Below, piece after piece: positions 21,410 through 54,105 of a stretch of 64,000 nt of DNA. Below the pieces are notes generated by a model. It had not been told where the DNA came from and did not search any database. It was given only the letters and a program-made list of their open reading frames with translations. Numbering within the stretch: position 1 is the first letter of the stretch; each line of letters starts with the position of its first letter. This DNA is from Methanofollis formosanus (GTDB lineage: Archaea; Halobacteriota; Methanomicrobia; Methanomicrobiales; Methanofollaceae). The position numbers and the translations under genes are program-made. The DNA lies in the NCBI RefSeq assembly GCF_019633745.1, contig NZ_CP037968.1, positions 1,184,789 to 1,248,788 of the forward strand, read 5' to 3'.

Positions 21410-21937
21410 GGGGGGTTCCTCCGGTGGGGTTCTCGGGTGACGGATATTTTTTGGATGGGTGTTTTCATAGGGCCTCGGGTTGGGGGTGCATCTGTGCTTC
21501 TGGTTTTTATTGTCTTGGGGGTGAACGTGGGGGGTAGCCTAAGGGCCTCACCTTCACCGTGGAGATGGGGGAAGGCGGACGGTATGATCTCCTCGGGAAC
21601 TTCAGGGATCATCACTCCTCTGAGGGAGAGAATATAAATGAAGAGCATGGGAGACGAAAGAGAAGGGAAAATAGAAAGAGAGAAGAAGATCGCCTTCTGG
21701 TAGTAGAGACTGAAGAGGCGGTCGTTCTTCCCCACCGGGATGCTGAGGATTGCTTTGCCCTCCTTGTAATTACCTACTTCACATTTTCAAGGGATTTTTT
21801 CGGTGCTTGTGCTTTTTATGGCATAAAAGAGGAAGGTGATAAGGTTTCTGTGGTGAGGTGAAAGTGAAGAGGGAGAAATCCTGCAGCAATAAACTACCGG
21901 GACATATCACTAAAACAATAATAATCTCGATTTAAAC
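21410..21937. other. Intergenic stretch with no gene seen
   Basis: 528 bp between the UbiA gene and the AT-rich island. Base composition drops in the right half. A TATA-like AATATAAAT near 21630 is visible, but the open frames here have compositionally random sequence and no ribosome binding site. This marks the junction between GC-rich core DNA and the island. Confidence 0.4.
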
Positions 21938-24865
21938 TCAATCCCCTCCCTGAAACCCCTCAAACTTGCTGAATGCGAGTACTCGTCTATTTCCGTTTAT
22001 TAAATGAATTTCTGGAGGCAACCCCGCACCTGAGCGAAATTCCTGAGGAATCTTAGGGCACAGGTCTTTGAAATCGCATTTATCACATTTATCAGGATGG
22101 GGACGCATAGGATAATCACCATCGAGAATTCCCTTAACAGCCCATTCTACATTCATGACAGCCGCGTCGATCGCGTCTTGAAATATTGGAACCTCCATGC
22201 GCTTATCGTCTTTCAAAAGATGTACAGAGCCGGTACGGGCATTTTCTCCCAATACATCCCGTGCCGCTTTGGCATACAACTGCACCTGGAGAGCCAATTC
22301 CGTCCACTCTAATTCTTCATTGGCAAAAGGATCGTCTTTTCCTTCCATTGCTTTGAAATCGATTACTTCCGCTCCGATAATAGTCCCAGTAGGATCTTCT
22401 TTTAATAACAGATCGATTGAGCCGGAAATGACACACCCCTCTGCGGGAATTTCAAAACGGGCTTCCACCTGCCTACTTGTTTGAAAGTCCTTACCGTTAT
22501 TCTCAACATAATTTTGCGCAATTTTCACAGTTGCATTTTCAGCGTTTTCGTAAGGCCCTGGTTTGAGTACAGGATCACCACTTCTCGGTACATGCTGTAG
22601 ATGGAAGGTATTTTTTACCATTGATTCGGCGTCTTCCGATGTGGGTATGCCATCAGTAAATTCAGTATGAAGCTTTTGAATACAGGTATGTACTGTTTGA
22701 CCAAAACCGAACATTTCTGGAATTGCGGGCGTGAAACCGAATCCTTTTCTGAAACGATAGTCCATAGGGCAATGGAGATAATAACGAATTTCTGAAAAAC
22801 TTGTGGGAAGAACCGCTTCATCTATTTTTTGTTTTTGCGGATATGAAATCAGTCCCTTTGGCATCTGGGTTGGATCATGTGATATCTCATCGTGTTTTAG
22901 CCTTAATGCATATTTAGAGAGTTTTCTTTCACTTTTTCCGCCAGGTAACTTTTTAGCGCCGGTAACGTAGAGATATCTTTCAGCGCGGGTGAGTGCGGTG
23001 TAGAATAGTCTGGCTTCTTCATCGTAATTCCTCTGATATGCCCCTCGGTTTAAGGCGTTTTTAATTATGGCCTCAGGTAACCATCCCTGATATTTTTTCT
23101 TATTTCCTGGGAAACGTTGTGCTTCAGCATCGACTAAGAAAACCACAGGGTATTCTAGACCTTTTACTTTATGAACCGTAGAAACCGCAACGGTATTAGG
23201 CCTTCGGACGATGTCGTCTGTCGAAACGTCGTAACCGGTCTCAGCGGCGTTGTCCAAAAAATTGAGAATCGATTGGAATCGATCAGGAGAATCGACACTC
23301 ACATACACGGCTTCGATGTCCTGGATCATTTTGCTGAACAAACCAATATCCCTCATGATTTCGTCACTGAAATTCGACTCAGCGATTCCAAATGCTCCGA
23401 GGAGTTCAAATACCAAATTTTGTGGATATATCCTCTGACGTGTTCCTTCAAGAGGTGTATGAATCTGACGTCCCCATTCTGTAAGTACCTTTACGACAGA
23501 TTCGAAATCAGCATGAGGGTAGGCCAGCAATATGCTGTTATCAAAGTAAGTCCTTACGTCTGAACGATTGGGAGAACCATCTCTAAGGAGTCTGAAGGTT
23601 TCCCTAAGAACATTCACTTGAGGACGTTCGAACGGGCCTCCTCCGGCCTCTAAACTATACTGAATTTGATGCTCCTTGAGTGCCTGAGTGAATGCAGAGT
23701 GACGAGGAGATTTGTCATTTTCAAGTTCTCGTGTTGATCTCATCAAAATGGCAAAATCAGAAAAAGTTAGTCCTCTCACTTCCCCATCCGGTTCTTCATA
23801 TGCGGTTCCGAGTAGGCTGTTTATTCGTTCTGCAACCCATGTGGCCTCACTTTTTCTGTCGCTGAAACCAATAACTCGGATATCACTCGGAGTTATGTTA
23901 TGTGCTGCATGTGGCATTTTATCGATTCTACTCGGGCCGAGCTCGGCAGAGATAAACGCGTTGGAAACTTCGACAATTGATGAGGTGCTTCTGAAATTTT
24001 CCGAGAGTGTGTGTTCTGAAGCTTCAGAAAATCGATCTTGAAAATTTATGATATTACTAACATCGGCACCTCTCCAGCCATAAATAGCCTGATCGTCGTC
24101 TCCAACGACGAATAATGTTTCAGAGAGACGATGCAAATGACGGATTAAATATTCTTGACTGGGAGAAACATCCTGGTATTCATCTACCATGAGATGTTTA
24201 AGTTGATCCACTGCAGAGAGAGCATTAGGGTTTCCATCATCAAATGCATCGACTACCTTTCGTATCATGAGGGAGAAATCGAGATATTGATCTCTTTGAA
24301 GACACCTGCTTAGCCTATTTAATGATGCCCCCAATTCCGGATCATGCTCTTCGACCTCTTCTATTTTGATCATTTCATCGTTTACGACTTTCCATGAATT
24401 TGAAACCTGCTTTATCGTTTCAAAATATCTATTTCTACAAGCCCGAGAACGAAGATCCTTAAGACCCAACTCAAGATACCTGGACATAAGATATAATATC
24501 AACCGATTGTCATCCAGAACCTCGTATTGTCGATAAACGGGATCTATCCGCCCAAGGATATACTGACAATAACTATGAATTGTCCCAATATACATGGCGC
24601 CCATAACATCGGTACTGATGCCGACGTCCATAAGTGCCTTAGCGACTCTTCTTTTTATGGTTTCAGCGGCTTTGTCTGTAAATGTGAATGCAACAATGCT
24701 TTCCGGCTTTTCCCCTTCTGAAAGCAATCGTGCGATCCTATATGCAAGAGTGCGGGATTTACCGGAACCGGCACACGCCAAACAGATGACCTCTTTTGTC
24801 GTGTCTTCCGCTGCTGCTTTTTGTTCAGGGGTCAAATTATTTTTTAGTACTTCATTTATGTCCAT
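21938..24865 (-). CDS. UvrD/PcrA-type helicase fused to a RecB-like (AddAB-type) nuclease
   Basis: 975 residues from ATG 24865 (MDINEVLKNN), chosen because GGTGAAGG lies just upstream; an ATG five codons earlier is possible. SF1A helicase motifs: Walker A ACAGSGKSRT, motif II DEYQDVSPSQ, motif III VGDDDQAIYGWRGAD, motif V VSTVHKVKGLEYPVVF, motif VI ALTRAERYLYV. C-terminal PD-(D/E)XK nuclease: SGSIDLLL and VIDFKAMEGK supply the Asp and Lys. An early Cys in LHCPMDYRF plus CDKCDFKDLC give the four Cys of an iron-sulfur clasp as in AddB. Unwinds and degrades DNA. AT-richer than the chromosome, last gene of the minus-strand island. Confidence 0.92.
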   Translation of the reverse strand: MDINEVLKNNLTPEQKAAAEDTTKEVICLACAGSGKSRTLAYRIARLLSEGEKPESIVAFTFTDKAAETIKRRVAKALMDVGISTDVMGAMYIGTIHSYCQYILGRIDPVYRQYEVLDDNRLILYLMSRYLELGLKDLRSRACRNRYFETIKQVSNSWKVVNDEMIKIEEVEEHDPELGASLNRLSRCLQRDQYLDFSLMIRKVVDAFDDGNPNALSAVDQLKHLMVDEYQDVSPSQEYLIRHLHRLSETLFVVGDDDQAIYGWRGADVSNIINFQDRFSEASEHTLSENFRSTSSIVEVSNAFISAELGPSRIDKMPHAAHNITPSDIRVIGFSDRKSEATWVAERINSLLGTAYEEPDGEVRGLTFSDFAILMRSTRELENDKSPRHSAFTQALKEHQIQYSLEAGGGPFERPQVNVLRETFRLLRDGSPNRSDVRTYFDNSILLAYPHADFESVVKVLTEWGRQIHTPLEGTRQRIYPQNLVFELLGAFGIAESNFSDEIMRDIGLFSKMIQDIEAVYVSVDSPDRFQSILNFLDNAAETGYDVSTDDIVRRPNTVAVSTVHKVKGLEYPVVFLVDAEAQRFPGNKKKYQGWLPEAIIKNALNRGAYQRNYDEEARLFYTALTRAERYLYVTGAKKLPGGKSERKLSKYALRLKHDEISHDPTQMPKGLISYPQKQKIDEAVLPTSFSEIRYYLHCPMDYRFRKGFGFTPAIPEMFGFGQTVHTCIQKLHTEFTDGIPTSEDAESMVKNTFHLQHVPRSGDPVLKPGPYENAENATVKIAQNYVENNGKDFQTSRQVEARFEIPAEGCVISGSIDLLLKEDPTGTIIGAEVIDFKAMEGKDDPFANEELEWTELALQVQLYAKAARDVLGENARTGSVHLLKDDKRMEVPIFQDAIDAAVMNVEWAVKGILDGDYPMRPHPDKCDKCDFKDLCPKIPQEFRSGAGLPPEIHLINGNRRVLAFSKFEGFQGGD

Positions 24866-25100
24866 TCCCTTCACCAACATTAATGACGGCAGGATTATCT
24901 TATCAAACCGATATCTTGTATTGAAAATGAATAGTAATATACTAAATAGGTATCTCTCTTATTTCTAGTGCCCATATCAATTTCAAAAACATTATAGGGG
25001 TATTTTTGATATAAATTGTAAATAAGAGCCCTATATTGATAAAGAAAATTTTATAGACGATAAAAAGGCATTTTATAGTTTATTATACAATATACAAATA
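24866..25100. other. AT-rich gap between helicase and vsr
   Basis: 235 bp of very AT-rich DNA with several runs that look like TATA boxes on the minus strand (for example around 25060-25080). No ORF. Likely holds the promoter of the helicase gene, which suggests that the helicase can be transcribed separately from the methyltransferase genes. Confidence 0.35.
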
Positions 25101-25535
25101 TCAATAATCATTCCGTCCAATACGATCCTCCAATAAAAAGTTAGTAATTTTTTCTTTTAGTTTCTCTTCGTCCCGGATTTCACATGTCCAAATTATAAGT
25201 GAGGTCCATCCAAGAGATCTCAGATCCTGAAATGCCTTTTGATCCCGTAAAATATTTTTTTCGATTTTTTCTTGCCAGAATTTTCTATTGGTCTGCGGAA
25301 GTTTCGCCCGAGAACATCCTTCATGTCCATGCCAAAAACAACCGTGGACAAAAATAACCTTCTTATATTTCGTTAAAACGATGTCCGGTGTGCCGGGAAG
25401 ATCTTTTCGGTGCAGCCTATACCCATACCCCATCGAACGAAGGATTCTGCGAACGATAAGTTCCGGTTGTGTGTCCTTGCTTTTCACAGAGGACATGATT
25501 TCGCTACGTTTTTTCTTATCGAATATATCGGTCAT
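25101..25535 (-). CDS. vsr: Vsr-type very-short-patch repair endonuclease
   Basis: 144 residues, normal Vsr length. Typical motifs: N-terminal RSEIMSSVKSKDTQPEL, the catalytic-Asp strand DLPGTPDIVL, FVHGCFWHGHEGCSRAKLPQ with His/Cys zinc ligands, and the C-terminal IIWTCEIRD. Nicks 5' to the T of T:G mismatches formed when 5-methylcytosine deaminates, and so protects sites methylated by its partner. The ATG overlaps the methyltransferase stop by one base (TAATG), which indicates translational coupling. Vsr is also found in restriction islands with MORC-like ATPases, as here. Confidence 0.95.
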   Translation of the reverse strand: MTDIFDKKKRSEIMSSVKSKDTQPELIVRRILRSMGYGYRLHRKDLPGTPDIVLTKYKKVIFVHGCFWHGHEGCSRAKLPQTNRKFWQEKIEKNILRDQKAFQDLRSLGWTSLIIWTCEIRDEEKLKEKITNFLLEDRIGRNDY

Positions 25536-26563
25536 TATAGGAGTTTCTTGACATATTTCGCAGCCGCCTCTGCAAACTTCGGCGGTAAAGCGTTACCGAT
25601 CATTACCGCGTTCAAGGTCAACCCGTACTCCGGATTAAATTTATAATTTTTCGGAAATGTCTGAAGGAGGGATGCCTCATAGATTGAGATGGGTCGGTTT
25701 TGTTCAGGATGAATGAATCGGCCCTTACTCGGATTAAAGCAGCCGCACGTAATGGTCGGAGATATATTATCCCAAGACATTCTGCCGTATACATCCTTGA
25801 ATCCCTTACTTTTCGAATTTCGATGACACGGCAACACAAGATCGTCGGGCAACTCAGATCTGCTCCCGCCGTCTTTGGGTATTGCTGCAATTCTTCTTCT
25901 CACCACTTCACCCGATTTTAAAATTAATTTATGAATAGGATTTTCACTATCTTCGGGAAGAGGAAGGCGTCCGATTGCGTCTCTTACCGTACGCTGCGGA
26001 ACCTTCTTTATATCATCAACATTCGGAGATTTTCCGGTTCTTGTAGCGATTAATACCAGACGTTTTCTTCGCTGCGGAACACCGTAATTTTCCAAGCGCA
26101 AGACAGCACGGCTTATTTTATATCCCATTTTTTCCAATTTTTTACGGAGTTCTTCAAATCTGGTATCTCGCTCCAAACCCGGAACATTTTCCATCATCAC
26201 GGTTTTCGGGTAAAGAGCTTCAACAATTGAAGCGTAATTGTTCACAAGATCATTTCGATCGTCGGGTTTCGCTTCAGGTTGATTCAATCTTCTTATTCTT
26301 GAAAAACCTTGGCAGGGCGGACAACCGGCCAGGAGATCGAGATCTCCCCGCTTCAATCCGAAAGGCTCAATGAGTTTGTTATAATCCAAATCTCGGATGT
26401 CCTCATCATACATCTTGACTTTGGGGTGATTGTCTTTGTAAGTTTGAGCGATTTTTTTATCGACCTCGACCGCGGCGACAACATTGAATCCTGCTTTTTT
26501 GAGGCCGAGGGTCATCCCTCCACATCCGGAAAAGAGGTCAACGGCAATCGGTTGCTTTTTCAT
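25535..26563 (-). CDS. dcm: DNA (cytosine-5) methyltransferase
   Basis: 342 residues. Motif I DLFSGCGGMTLGLKKAG, motif IV with catalytic Cys GCPPCQGFSRI (about residue 82), motif VI VMMENVPGL, motif VIII GVPQRRKRLVLIA, and motifs IX-X with GNALPPKFAEAAAKY at the end. A target recognition domain lies at about residues 190-290. Methylates C5 of cytosine in a specific DNA sequence that cannot be read from sequence. In this position it most probably labels host DNA for the neighbouring ATPase-nuclease. Confidence 0.96.
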   Translation of the reverse strand: MKKQPIAVDLFSGCGGMTLGLKKAGFNVVAAVEVDKKIAQTYKDNHPKVKMYDEDIRDLDYNKLIEPFGLKRGDLDLLAGCPPCQGFSRIRRLNQPEAKPDDRNDLVNNYASIVEALYPKTVMMENVPGLERDTRFEELRKKLEKMGYKISRAVLRLENYGVPQRRKRLVLIATRTGKSPNVDDIKKVPQRTVRDAIGRLPLPEDSENPIHKLILKSGEVVRRRIAAIPKDGGSRSELPDDLVLPCHRNSKSKGFKDVYGRMSWDNISPTITCGCFNPSKGRFIHPEQNRPISIYEASLLQTFPKNYKFNPEYGLTLNAVMIGNALPPKFAEAAAKYVKKLL

Positions 26564-26642
26564 ATATCAATCATTTATTACGTTCCGTACCGGTATAAGG
26601 TTGCCGGCTAAATCCCTCTCGATTCATAAGGACATCCTATAC

Positions 26643-26822
26643 CTACACAACGGAAACACCTGATCCAACTGCCTTCACCGTGCGTACTTCTGCCCGGTTT
26701 TTCCGATAATGTCGAATAATCTCAACGCTTGGTAGTTTCCTGTAATATTGACAAAAACCGAGAAAGACACTCTCTGAAACAGGAATCAGACCAACATGAC
26801 CAGGAGGAATGATCCCCCCCAT
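26643..26822 (-). CDS. Possible small gene between the MORC-like ATPase and the methyltransferase
   Basis: A 59-codon ORF starting ATG 26822 and ending TAG. The product begins MGGIIPPGHVGLIPVSESVF, continues LGFCQYYRKLPSVEIIRHYR and ends VKAVGSGVSVV. Amino-acid composition looks protein-like (hydrophobic start, basic middle) rather than random, and it lies on the same strand with gaps of about 80-90 bp to both neighbours. No family recognised. It could be a small component of the island or the remaining fragment of a longer gene. Confidence 0.35.
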   Translation of the reverse strand: MGGIIPPGHVGLIPVSESVFLGFCQYYRKLPSVEIIRHYRKNRAEVRTVKAVGSGVSVV

Positions 26823-26910
26823 CTCAATTCAGGGCTGGCACACCAGCGGTGTCGTGGCAGTTGAAGCGGCCCGACTATATTCAGGTTCGATTGATGTTTT
26901 TAAAATATAA

Positions 26911-28899
26911 TCATACGTCGGAGCTTCCGAGACCGCGTATTCTATCCTCCTTAGATCTATGGGCGGAACCCCGATCAAGGATTGCTCGCGTCCTCGCAAT
27001 CTCAACTTTCTTGCTTTGAAATTCCCCAGAGGTGACGTCCCCGCTAAGCACGCCCTCATAGTGGGTGTAAAATGTCCTTGCTCTTTTGAACATCTTACTC
27101 CATTCTAAAGCCTCAAAATCGTCTGCGCTTTTCATCTCTTCCCACTTGCTTTGAGGGATATTGACATTCCCACCATAGACCAGAACGCGTCGACAAGGCT
27201 CCCTCGCCTTCATCAACTCCACTTGGTACTGTTCCAAGCGCTGTATTTCGTTGAACTCAACCGCATGTCCCGGCCGCTTCAGTTCAATGATAATCAGATC
27301 GTCGCTATTCTTATCGAAAGCAAGGAAGTCGACCCTTTTGCTTTCCATATCCTCCGGACAGTCTGTCTTACCCCACTCGCGGAGCGTATTGCCGATAGAC
27401 TTTTCTTCCACATAAACCTGCCATTCCGGATTAAAGATCCACGGATATTCTGCCAGCAAGTCGTGAAGATTGTCATCAGTCCTACTCGATGCCGTTTCAG
27501 GGGAATTTCCAACAATCATCCGCTCCAATTTGGTTATAATGCTTAATCGGCCTTTAATGATCTCAAGGATAGCCCGACTTTCTAATACCTTCCAATCATA
27601 CAGGCGACCCAACAACTCCTCAAGTTTCTCCGGATCCTGACCTACTTGTTCGATATCGTCAATCACATCATGGAATGCACGGAATTCGTATGCACGGATC
27701 AACGAATTCGCGAGATCTTTCGTACGACCATCCTGTTCCTCCGATTTTTCCCCCAAAACCTTCAGGAATTTACTAATCTCCTTACGTGTGCTTGGATCAA
27801 GCAGAGACAACCGTTCAGTAAATTCCGGTTCATTCATAATCCAATTCTCAAGTAAACCCCCACGCATTTCTGCACACTCACGCAGCACCTTTCGAACAAG
27901 TTCTTCTCCCCACATATGGAGTTCTTTGAGTTCTTCCTTTTCCCAATCCAACTCCTGTCTATCCGTTGAAATAACGTCTGAATCATTATCAGTTCCTGAA
28001 TCGGTGAAATCCGCAATTATTTCACCGGTTACGTATCTTGTGGAGTGCTGAGCCGATGCGGTCGACTCCACATTGAAGAAAAACGGCGGAACTTGTGCCG
28101 TCCGTTCGTTCGCATAGATAACAAAACCCTGGAGTTCCTTAGATCGCAACGGTTTGTTTGCAAAGCGATAGCGATATTGAACAATATTCCCATCAGAAAG
28201 TTTTTTAGTTTCATATTCACCATTTTCCGGAAAAACATACATAGTGTCGATATTCGGCTCTACTAACGGCTCTTCGTTGATCAGGATAGTCATTTCTCCA
28301 CGAGTGGTCCGAGAGAAGCGTCTGGCGAGCGTTTCTTTGAGAGTGGAGATCTCGATTGGCGTTTTATGCCGCAAATCCGACAACTCAATTCGAGTACCGG
28401 ATGTGGGCCACCCCTCTTGTTTATCCACCTCATATCGATCGAACTTTATTTCTCGGGCCTGACCTGCATCAATCCTAAGTTGGTTTAGAGCCATGGAGAA
28501 CTGAATAGCCTTTTCCATGACTCCTGTCCACGTTGTCACGGTAACTTTTTCGGCTAAGCCGAAACCGGCAAGTTTGCCGATCCCCTTCCGCCCCATTACC
28601 TTTCGGCCGTTCTTTTCTCCACCATCTTCAGCGCGGCGGTTGCGTCCTACAACAAGATACCGACCCTGAACTGCATCAGCATCCATTCCCTCGCCGTCGT
28701 CAATAATCGTAATTACGCTTCCAACGGCGTTATACTGATCCGCTTCTGGAATGGTTATCCACACGGAATTCGCTTCTGCGTCCCAGCAATTGGCCACAAG
28801 TTCTGCAATTGCGGGGGCACGATGCTTGTACATCTGTGTACCGAGATGCTCGATGGTTCGTCCAAGGATCGTCATCGTGAAGTAATCGCCATCCACCAT
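26911..28899 (-). CDS. MORC/MutL-like GHKL ATPase fused to a PD-(D/E)XK nuclease (DUF4263-like)
   Basis: 662 residues. Residues ~15-190 are a Bergerat-fold ATPase: N box ELVANCWDAEA, IIDDGEGMD (DxGxG), GRKGIGKLAGFGLA (G2 loop) and a later GTRIEL (G3). The S5-type middle domain follows. Residues ~480-600 are a nuclease: LLAEYPWIFNPEWQVY, then VDFLAFDKNSDDLIIIELKR with Asp and ExK. A helical region with RFSRTTRGEM and an acidic stretch connects them. MutL/MORC homologues are known partners of Dcm/Vsr in restriction-type systems. Predicted ATP-driven DNA clamp that cuts unmodified DNA. First gene of the island operon; GGGAGATCTGG precedes the ATG. Confidence 0.85.
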   Translation of the reverse strand: MVDGDYFTMTILGRTIEHLGTQMYKHRAPAIAELVANCWDAEANSVWITIPEADQYNAVGSVITIIDDGEGMDADAVQGRYLVVGRNRRAEDGGEKNGRKVMGRKGIGKLAGFGLAEKVTVTTWTGVMEKAIQFSMALNQLRIDAGQAREIKFDRYEVDKQEGWPTSGTRIELSDLRHKTPIEISTLKETLARRFSRTTRGEMTILINEEPLVEPNIDTMYVFPENGEYETKKLSDGNIVQYRYRFANKPLRSKELQGFVIYANERTAQVPPFFFNVESTASAQHSTRYVTGEIIADFTDSGTDNDSDVISTDRQELDWEKEELKELHMWGEELVRKVLRECAEMRGGLLENWIMNEPEFTERLSLLDPSTRKEISKFLKVLGEKSEEQDGRTKDLANSLIRAYEFRAFHDVIDDIEQVGQDPEKLEELLGRLYDWKVLESRAILEIIKGRLSIITKLERMIVGNSPETASSRTDDNLHDLLAEYPWIFNPEWQVYVEEKSIGNTLREWGKTDCPEDMESKRVDFLAFDKNSDDLIIIELKRPGHAVEFNEIQRLEQYQVELMKAREPCRRVLVYGGNVNIPQSKWEEMKSADDFEALEWSKMFKRARTFYTHYEGVLSGDVTSGEFQSKKVEIARTRAILDRGSAHRSKEDRIRGLGSSDV

Positions 28900-29116
28900 T
28901 GGCCAGATCTCCCTTTGTTGATAGTCCTTTCATAAATAAAAAGCACTATCGAATGTAGATTTTATACAGAATATTGCCTTCTAGGAGATTAAAACAAGAC
29001 TATTGCCAGATACAAGTTATTTTTGCGAGACGTATTATCAATATATAATCTTTGAGTGAATGGTCATCAATAAGAGGGAAAATCCTATCTCCTCTCAGGC
29101 AACTCGCCTTCTGCAG
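28900..29116. other. AT-rich left border of the island
   Basis: About 217 bp with AT-rich runs, including TATATAAT-like sequence near 29041-29050 and TTTTATTT near 28930. On the minus strand these can serve as promoter for the MORC-like gene. No ORF of any credibility. Base composition returns to GC-rich immediately to the right. Confidence 0.4.
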
Positions 29117-29656
29117 TTAATCAAGCCGATGCTGTCCATCTTCCCCCCGTCCCACCCCAAACCTCACACACCCCTCCTCATCCCCCACTCCATCACGCAC
29201 AAACCCGCACTTCTCCAGCACCCGCACCGAAGCACCATTCCCCGCTTCCGCCTGCGCCGTCACCCGCACCACCTCAGGACACCCGAACGCCCACTCCACC
29301 AGGGCGGCCACCGCCTCGGTCGCATACCCGCACCCCCGGTACGCCGGGAGGACGGCATACCCGATCTCCGCCTCGCCGTCAGGCGACGGCCGCCCCACAA
29401 ACCCGCACGAACCGACGAGCACCCCCTCAGCGGAGATCACGTACCACAGATTCCAGCCCACGCTCTCCGGGTCATTCTTCAGCCAGGAGAGGAAGAGCGG
29501 GAGGGCATCGGGGAGCGTCTCGGGCGGCCAGTCGTCGGGGACGGCGGCGCCCAGCAGACCGGCAAGCGTTGCGGCGTCGGCATCGACGTCGGCGACGAGG
29601 TGCGCCGCCGTCGCCGGGACCAGACGAAGACGGGCGGTCTCGAACGCCTCAGTCAC
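29117..29656 (-). CDS. GNAT-family N-acetyltransferase (RimJ/RimL type)
   Basis: About 179 residues from a GTG at 29656 (reading VTEAFETARLRLVPAT); the longer open frame upstream lies inside the methyltransferase gene and is not protein-like. RimJ-type acetyltransferase: ETARLRLVPAT start, GEAEIGYAVLPAYRGCGYAT (acetyl-CoA loop, R-G-x-G-Y-A), and the C-terminal SVRVLEKCGFVRDG. Transfers acetyl from acetyl-CoA to an amino group; the substrate is unknown. The start codon overlaps the methyltransferase stop by several bases (GTGACTGA), so the two are translationally coupled. Confidence 0.85.
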   Translation of the reverse strand: MTEAFETARLRLVPATAAHLVADVDADAATLAGLLGAAVPDDWPPETLPDALPLFLSWLKNDPESVGWNLWYVISAEGVLVGSCGFVGRPSPDGEAEIGYAVLPAYRGCGYATEAVAALVEWAFGCPEVVRVTAQAEAGNGASVRVLEKCGFVRDGVGDEEGCVRFGVGRGEDGQHRLD

Positions 29657-31633: not shown

Positions 31634-31798
31634 AAGACATCAGGCCCAAATTATAATATTGTCATATATAATTTGCCCCGGCACCGGATCGTCATCATCC
31701 CCGCAAAATCACGGCCTGAATGCCCGGCCCCGTTCAGCCGGCGATCTCCGAGAGAGGATCGTTCGGGAACGATTCCGAAAATCTATACGAAACACGGC

Positions 31799-32040
31799 TC
31801 TGGAGAATTCGGCACGAACCCCTGGTTCAAGCATACGCGGTTGAATATTGTTCTGAGCTTCGCTTCGGCATGCGGATGGATCCCTCTCACTCGCCGCCCC
31901 CGCCTATCTTCGTCGTGGGGGGTCCAGGGGGTGCAACCCCCCGGCGCGAGACGGCGATAAAGATTCTACGATGAGGGCGGCACATCGGATCATCACGCCT
32001 TCCCGTACCATACGCACCGGGGGCGTGCCGGAGCGCGAGA
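31799..32040 (+). repeat. Mosaic non-coding repeat, copy 5
   Basis: End module 31799-31850 (GAGAATTCGGCACGAACC, CCT, GGTTCAAGCATACGCGGTTG) with a perfect GAACC/GGTTC stem. A linker GAGCTTCGCTTCGGCATGCGG resembles the minus-strand linker at 42.9 and 4.57 kb. Core about 31893-31981 (GCCGCCCCCGCCTATCTTCG to GAGGGCGGC). Then ATCATCACGCCTTCCC starts a truncated third module. Lies in the gap between the TM-helix and DUF61 genes. Confidence 0.8.
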
Positions 32041-33632: not shown

Positions 33633-34562
33633 TCAGATCTTTTTTATACAAAAGTAAACAAAATATTTGTACCCAACTTTTGGACCATAAATACTCCATA
33701 AAAGATGGTTTGACTTAAACTGGGGAATCGAACCCTTTTCTTTTAGTATATTCTCATAGTTCAACATACGTTGATCTGAAGCATCTAGAACCTCAAAATA
33801 TCGACGTTCTCCATCCTTAATCTCTTCACTTTTAAAAATTTGATACTTTTTCTTAATTTCTCCCTCCAGTTTTACTTTAATTTGTAAATATTCGGTTTTT
33901 TGATTGATTCTAAGTCCGATATACTCAGTTTTACCATCAAATCCTTTTGCATATGCAGTAGTATCATATTGAATATTGAGATTACAGACACCTTTTGGTT
34001 CAATTTCAACTGGAACCCGATATTTACAAGCCACACCCTTAAATGATTCATCACCATTTTTTTCATTAATTGTTTTATGAACATTAAGTTCATATCCCGC
34101 ATCCTTCTCTGAAAGATTTAGCCTCTCACCATTAATTGATATTTTACAATCTGTCACATTGGGTGCGTGTTGATCAGACATAATCTCAATGAGATATTGT
34201 TTATATTTCGCATTCATATGATTCTCAATATCATGAACGCTTTCCACCTTACCGATCTGACGGCCAGGTGAAATCTCACCGAAAGTCACAGTTTTAGAAA
34301 TAGTATGCAAAGTAATGTCCATAAAAGAATATCTCTCAGCAAATTTATTGATGGAATCCAACAGATCTGCGGAGTATAACATACACGATATAAATAACGA
34401 TGCAACTAATACTGCAATAAGAAATTCTACAAACAAAACAGAATCATTAGGGAATAGATAAGCACCTACTGCAGTTAGCGAGACTGAAATTATGATAACA
34501 ACAAAATAACTTACAAAACGCTTAAATAAATTCCAAAGGCGCACCCTGCGAGGACCAAACAT
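33633..34562 (-). CDS. AT-rich hypothetical membrane-anchored protein
   Basis: 309 residues, no family recognised. Two membrane helices near the N-terminus (FVSYFVVIIISVSLTAVGAY and FLIAVLVASLFISCMLYS). The remaining ~230 residues are soluble and beta-rich, with a repeated pattern of charged strands (VACKYRVPVEIEPKGVCNLN, YIGLRINQKTEYLQIKVKLE). Base composition is far below the GC level of its neighbours, and a degenerate repeat copy lies on its upstream side, so recent acquisition is likely. The two-helix plus sensor-like layout recalls membrane proteins of defence modules, but that is speculation. Confidence 0.6.
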   Translation of the reverse strand: MFGPRRVRLWNLFKRFVSYFVVIIISVSLTAVGAYLFPNDSVLFVEFLIAVLVASLFISCMLYSADLLDSINKFAERYSFMDITLHTISKTVTFGEISPGRQIGKVESVHDIENHMNAKYKQYLIEIMSDQHAPNVTDCKISINGERLNLSEKDAGYELNVHKTINEKNGDESFKGVACKYRVPVEIEPKGVCNLNIQYDTTAYAKGFDGKTEYIGLRINQKTEYLQIKVKLEGEIKKKYQIFKSEEIKDGERRYFEVLDASDQRMLNYENILKEKGSIPQFKSNHLLWSIYGPKVGYKYFVYFCIKKI

Positions 34563-35340: not shown

Positions 35341-35412
35341 CTGTAAGTAATATCAATTTCTGTGAAAAGAACCATAAATCAAAGAAAGGGCTTTGAACCC
35401 TCGATAGAAAAG

Positions 35413-35484
35413 AGCCGCTGGAGGGATTCGAACCCTCGGCCTGCTGATTACGAATCAGCCGCTATACCACTAAGCCACAGCGGC
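35413..35484 (-). tRNA. tRNA-Thr(CGT)
   Basis: 72 nt on the minus strand, cloverleaf clear: acceptor GCCGCTG/CAGCGGC, D arm GTGGC...GTGGTATAGCGGC, anticodon stem GCTGA/TCAGC around the loop TTCGTAA (anticodon CGT, codon ACG), and T arm GAGGGTTCGAATCCCTC. CCA is not encoded. A TATA-like box lies ~40 bp upstream. Confidence 0.95.
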
Positions 35485-53986: not shown

Positions 53987-54006
53987 CAGCACTGAACGGT
54001 GCTGGC

Positions 54007-54105
54007 TGACGTAAGTCCGACGTGCCTCACGGCACGGCCCGAAGTGGCTCGGGATTACAGAGAGGTCAGTAGCAATACTGCTCTTTTCTGGACTTACTCT
54101 GGTCA
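54007..54105 (+). ncRNA. Candidate structured leader RNA upstream of rps15
   Basis: Closing stem GTAAGTCC (54011-54018) with GGACTTAC (54090-54097), extended by TGAC/GTCA outside. Inside are three hairpins: CGTGCC-TCAC-GGCACG (54021-54036), CCCGA/TCGGG (54038-54053), and AGAG-GT-CAGTA-GCAA-TACTG-CTCT (54061-54084) with a GNRA loop. Together they make a four-way junction of ~90 nt that ends about 15 nt ahead of the rps15 start. It may be an autoregulatory site for S15 or a separate small RNA. The fold was found by eye and not computed. Confidence 0.5.

Follow-up and report, generated by a model that had tools for sequence, protein, structure and literature searches.

A candidate cytosine-C5 restriction island from Methanofollis formosanus with one Dcm-Vsr pair and two predicted ATP-driven nucleases

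Does a block of low-GC genes in the chromosome of Methanofollis formosanus encode one restriction system, in which a single cytosine-C5 methyltransferase serves two ATP-driven nucleases, or were two separate defense modules placed side by side? The question is raised by a window of 64,000 nucleotides (the entire stretch of DNA analyzed here) from a chromosome that is contained in one 2.97-Mb contig. An earlier note on this DNA had described a defense-like operon of five genes on the same strand, possibly forming one unusually complex system. The genes were indeed found to be intact and all on the minus strand, but there are four of them with open frames, in the reading order ATPase, Dcm, Vsr, and helicase (Table 1). 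The fifth, a "small ORF" of 59 aa on the minus strand (26643-26822) within the spacer between the ATPase and Dcm genes, has no relative among 6,126 ORFs from the loci compared here, nor is it matched in the sister genomes, and it was rejected as a gene for a C protein or similar because no relative could be detected.

Table 1. Features of the island, with positions numbered within the window
Feature	Position	Strand	Size	Remarks
GHKL (MORC-type) ATPase with C-terminal PD-(D/E)XK nuclease	26911..28899	minus	662 aa	distant BbrUII/HgiDII-type restriction enzyme (paraMORC3 / GHKL-Shedu type)
Spacer ATPase/Dcm	26564..26910		347 bp	
Cytosine-C5 DNA methyltransferase (Dcm type)	25535..26563	minus	342 aa	
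Vsr-type T:G mismatch endonuclease	25101..25535	minus	144 aa	1-nt overlap with the Dcm stop
Spacer Vsr/helicase	24881..25100		220 bp	25% GC; TATA-like TTTATA 135 bp before the helicase start
UvrD-type SF1 helicase with RecB/Cas4-like nuclease (PDDEXK_1)	21938..24880	minus	980 aa	UvrD-Cas4 family
Variable insert	21534..29147			limits are the points where homology to the sister species stops and resumes

The lower GC content that had been claimed for the island was readily confirmed. The island is 40-47% GC versus ~65% for the archaeal chromosome, and within ~21.5-29.0 kb of the window values of 0.39-0.48 replace the ~0.66-0.70 of the surroundings. The GC contents of the ATPase, Dcm, Vsr, and helicase genes are 0.475, 0.444, 0.400, and 0.433, respectively, versus 0.58-0.69 for most of the flanking genes, and the four genes have a similar codon usage, which differs from that of most of their neighbors. 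This low-GC four-gene region is far beyond chance. Elsewhere in the window there is a second, very AT-rich patch (33633-34562, gene GC 0.33) with a 309-aa ORF that has no Pfam match, close to a tRNA-Thr at 35412-35484; a dispersed repeat of ~130-235 bp at ~31795-32030, of which there are dozens of copies in the host genome and the sister species; and an S15-Methanomicrobia leader at 53988-54058.

The proteins of the island were matched to the Pfam families HATPase_c_3 (6e-18), DNA_methylase (1e-60), Vsr (2e-33), UvrD-helicase (2e-54), and PDDEXK_1 (8e-20), in agreement with the initial naming of a Dcm and a Vsr. The ExK motif, the Walker A motif, and the four cysteines are all intact. A single transcript for all four genes is only putative, since the helicase gene is set apart by a 220-bp gap of low GC content, and the TTTATA element in this gap makes a separate helicase promoter possible.

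The ATPase-nuclease contains residues E33, N37, D67, and K105 of the ATPase and D524, E539, and K541 of the nuclease, of which E33, N37, D524, and E539 are invariant across the alignment. A full-length AlphaFold model (33 sequences, pLDDT 79.6, pTM 0.62, a value at which the relative placement of the domains was not interpreted) was matched best by the ATPase module of MORC3 (5ix2_A, Z 22.9, rmsd 3.5, 296 aligned, model residues 10-348). The label "MORC-type" is therefore right, and the protein has the GHKL plus S5 module of paraMORC3 and MORC-type ATPases. The nuclease domain was folded alone for its classification (pLDDT 91.3) because Foldseek with the whole 662-aa model matched only the ATPase. 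The isolated model gave Z scores of 13.2 with EndoMS, which is an archaeal mismatch endonuclease, 11.1 with E. coli SduA, and 10.9 with B. cereus Shedu; it has the Shedu-type PD-(D/E)XK fold, with the higher score going to EndoMS. The initial recognition of a MORC-type ATPase that carries a PD-(D/E)XK nuclease with an intact ExK thus stands.

Against the BbrUII/HgiDII family NF050001 the protein scored 254 bits (E 3e-75), which does not reach the curated cutoff of 550 bits, and by this measure it is a relative of the family and not an equivalog. The same family was matched by 33 of 33 aligned ATPase relatives. The score against SduA_C (PF14082) was 18.0 bits (E 0.0035), below the Pfam gathering score of 27, and this domain was matched at E ≤ 0.01 in 8 of the 33. 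A GHKL ATPase followed by a PD-(D/E)XK nuclease is the arrangement described for paraMORC3 (Iyer et al. 2008, PMC2292703). As in the island, the BbrUII/HgiDII-type and paraMORC3 proteins combine an N-terminal GHKL ATPase with a C-terminal nuclease beside a cytosine methylase and, sometimes, a Vsr; however, the island ATPase is only ~25-30% identical to most members, and a helicase-nuclease is added in the island. The GTCGAC specificity of this family, with cutting unless the site is methylated, is known only for characterized members (M.HgiDII, PMC5867850). The same domain order is found in VcSduA, a GHKL-Shedu protein for which a single gene defends and for which anti-phage activity requires the ATPase glutamate and the nuclease lysine (PMC12137116). 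These essential residues, E27 and K557, match E33 and K541 of the island protein by motif. VcSduA acts as one gene, whereas the island has the Dcm-Vsr pair and the helicase.

Relatives of the ATPase were taken from plasmids, phages, archaea, and viral contigs, with the ATPase as the sole basis for finding them. In the viral scan a single ATPase query returned nothing and an alignment query returned 73 loci; many of the viral loci are near-copies, and 49 ATPases were left at <90% identity. The nearest full-length relatives were found on viral contigs, and no close relative was found in the same genus. Of the 66 loci with flanks of 2 kb or more, all contain Dcm (within 600 bp in 59), 11 contain Vsr, and none contains a UvrD-Cas4-type helicase, which is contrary to the idea of one established system of unusual complexity. 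The adjacent m5C methylase that is typical of BbrUII/HgiDII is also found in the island, where Dcm lies 347 bp downstream of the ATPase. The closest relative (L255, 47% identity) is a two-gene Dcm-ATPase pair, and the island ATPase is its sister in the ATPase tree (100/100). Relatives are present in prophages and plasmids, where they adjoin Dcm. In the P2-like Escherichia phage PhiR44_1 (L032) a paraMORC3-Dcm pair lies between replication and portal genes, and the annotation of the phage record already identifies it.

The helicase-nuclease was matched by PF00580 (2e-54), PF13361 (1e-29), and PF12705 (8e-20), all over cutoff. It carries RecB/Cas4 nuclease motifs and the iron-sulfur cysteines C704/C932/C935/C941, and so the proposed AddAB/Cas4-like helicase-nuclease with an iron-sulfur cluster motif was upheld. 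In the helicase tree the island protein groups with L074 and L076 (99/95) and then with L075, L054, and L164 (100/100). Close relatives are adjacent to Dcm in 4 of 4 assessable loci, at -25 to +24 nt. Dcm adjoins the relatives L054, L055, L074, L076, and L164, and type III Mod/Res adjoin L056, L059, L062, L064, L080, and L149. A MORC-type ATPase was not found in the close helicase loci, an absence that counts for little at L076, L075, and L164 because these are cut by contig ends. Some of the helicase-Dcm loci have another nuclease candidate nearby, which would fit an accessory role of the helicase: HNH+DUF3427 (L074), NOV_C (L075), and an ExK-bearing ORF without a Pfam match (L054). In L054 (10001-17278, from a Ruminococcaceae MAG) three Dcm genes in tandem and the ExK-bearing ORF come after the UvrD-Cas4 helicase. 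No helicase relative was found in the same genus at E ≤ 1e-100, and genome G086 holds only the type III-linked member L064. One scan of genome contigs with the helicase returned a single relative, L054. The class-level genome search amounted to an order-level set, and plasmids, phages, and viral contigs were the only source of sequences from bacteria of other phyla.

Previously, the UvrD-Cas4 fusion was reported alongside either type III RM or Dcm, the latter with or without Vsr; UvrD-Cas4, Dcm, and Vsr were presented as components of defense systems, and the Dcm-Vsr pair was also found with MORC ATPases (Hudaiberdiev et al. 2017, PMC5704561). The fusion protein and both of its partners, Dcm and Vsr, are common to that locus and the island, which differs by the addition of a MORC-type ATPase-nuclease on the other side of Dcm-Vsr. 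The type III RM loci of that study use the same helicase-nuclease family as an accessory, but the partners are Mod and Res there and Dcm in the island. By gene content, the island combines two known modules, assembled around a single Dcm-Vsr pair. The earlier note had made its proposal depend on conservation of the gene set in other genomes. The helicase and the ATPase-Dcm-Vsr set do not occur together elsewhere, although the helicase and Dcm alone (with or without Vsr) do. The island thus joins two predicted ATP-powered DNA-cutting enzymes that are normally apart, in a combination not found elsewhere among the sampled loci. The parts and their pairings are already in the literature; what is added here is their combination, the Dcm clade shared by the two effector types, and the hotspot in archaea.

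Together with 12 others, the island Dcm forms a supported clade (99/97), in which 10 members are partnered with the ATPase, two with the helicase (L074 and L076), and the island Dcm with both; it is sister to the other twelve (96/86). Each type of effector is thus a partner of this one clade. The target-recognition region is 40-50% identical to that of the island Dcm inside the clade and 30-39% outside it, and it is therefore plausible that these enzymes recognize similar sequences. The helicase and Dcm trees agree, with the island beside L074/L076 in both. The ATPase tree departs from the Dcm tree, and the Dcm of L255 groups elsewhere within the clade. This pattern leans toward addition of the ATPase to a core of Dcm, Vsr, and helicase, although a single swap in L255 would also account for the conflict between the ATPase and Dcm trees. 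The Dcm tree suggests that a given Dcm can exchange its effector.

The slot that the island occupies was compared in the sister species G085, G086, G089, G090, and G092 (loci L352-L356), between window points 21534 and 29147. It is flanked by genes for a UbiA prenyltransferase and an N6/N4 methyltransferase, both of which are conserved in the genus. The sister slots were found to hold MZA with two Dcm genes and an HhH-GPD glycosylase (11.9 kb), Druantia IV genes with a glycosylase-like gene and Dcm (14.2 kb), ietAS (4.3 kb), a Schlafen-like PDC-S50 (1.8 kb), or only ~0.5 kb in the empty form. No target-site duplication or inverted repeats beyond a chance 10-mer were found at the island edges. 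Judged from its contents in these genomes, the slot is an archaeal defense hotspot, and this location is independent evidence for a defense role of the island. The restriction-type context that had been claimed is supported.

Restriction enzymes cut, and degradation is usually left to the host RecBCD/AddAB. From the observed gene content, intact motifs, domain folds, pairing of either effector type with this Dcm clade, and hotspot location, together with the need of VcSduA for both of its active sites, we consider that there is an even chance that the island is a cytosine-C5 restriction-modification defense island in which one Dcm-Vsr pair operates with two ATP-driven nucleases, and we infer its restriction activity, methylation sensitivity, division of labor, and order of action as follows. 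Dcm would methylate host DNA at its own target sequence, and Vsr would repair the T:G mismatches that arise from deamination of 5-methylcytosine. The MORC-type ATPase-nuclease would act as the restriction enzyme, with a GHKL dimer that closes on DNA in an ATP-dependent manner and an EndoMS/Shedu-like nuclease that then cuts unmodified foreign DNA. The UvrD-Cas4 helicase-nuclease would enter at ends or nicks, unwind and degrade the DNA, and be the counterpart here of RecBCD/AddAB in ordinary restriction. More tentatively, two different ATP machines may belong to a single defense system and be controlled by the same Dcm mark, the MORC-type clamp nuclease making the first cut and the helicase-nuclease being dedicated to resection.

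It is also possible, though short of probable, that two independent modules are stacked in the hotspot: a complete UvrD-Cas4/Dcm/Vsr system and a stand-alone GHKL-Shedu-like nuclease that makes no use of Dcm. Several observations count against the restriction-modification reading above: no other sampled locus holds both effectors, and spacers of 347 and 220 bp part Dcm-Vsr from them, whereas close relatives lie directly at their Dcm; the ATPase is also below both the BbrUII cutoff (254/550 bits) and the SduA_C cutoff (18/27). The stacking of modules is consistent with the long spacer between ATPase and Dcm, with the agreement of the helicase and Dcm trees and the departure of the ATPase tree, in which the island ATPase joins L255, and with a slot where modules accumulate. 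Since VcSduA works as one gene, the island ATPase may not depend on Dcm. However, all 66 sampled ATPase relatives sit with Dcm, the nearest of them is a Dcm-ATPase pair whose Dcm belongs to the same clade, and codon usage is similar in all four genes.

The similarity of the nuclease to EndoMS, together with the cooperation of MutL, Vsr, and UvrD in repair in E. coli (PMC2292703), could instead point to methylation-linked repair, in which the MutL/MORC-like ATPase, Vsr, and the UvrD helicase perform mismatch or very-short-patch repair. This role is very unlikely because the host encodes MutS and MutL of its own and because the set is absent from the sister species, where defense systems take the same slot; the ATPase relatives beside Dcm in prophages and plasmids also argue against it. 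A decaying or nonfunctional remnant of mobile defense genes would account for the irregular spacers and the unexplained 347-bp stretch, but it is improbable given four reading frames and catalytic residues that are all intact.

If the single-system reading is true, the same Dcm clade could work with either effector, and the island would be a composite in which the "initiator" and the "degrader" of restriction plug interchangeably into one shared methylation mark. A restriction locus with its own helicase-nuclease would explain defense where RecBCD/AddAB-like machines are missing or insufficient, and the MORC-EndoMS architecture would connect the eukaryotic MORC silencing ATPases with predicted methylation-gated DNA cutting. 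The slot between the UbiA and methyltransferase genes is a practical place for finding further archaeal defense systems.

Two minor observations were made among the related loci. Of the 49 ATPase relatives, 41 retain the ExK lysine. In a Dcm-partnered group of ATPase-nucleases (L256, L257, L261, L262, L265, L266, L268, and L033), methionine takes the place of the catalytic lysine (E-F-M), although the genes are intact. An HhH-GPD glycosylase-like gene lies next to Dcm, where other loci have Vsr, in L352 (9331-10035), L353 (12931-13590), and L069 (11294-11947); the assignment is a Pfam match for L352 and a resemblance for L353 and L069. Perhaps this gene stands in for Vsr in the repair of deaminated 5-methylcytosine.
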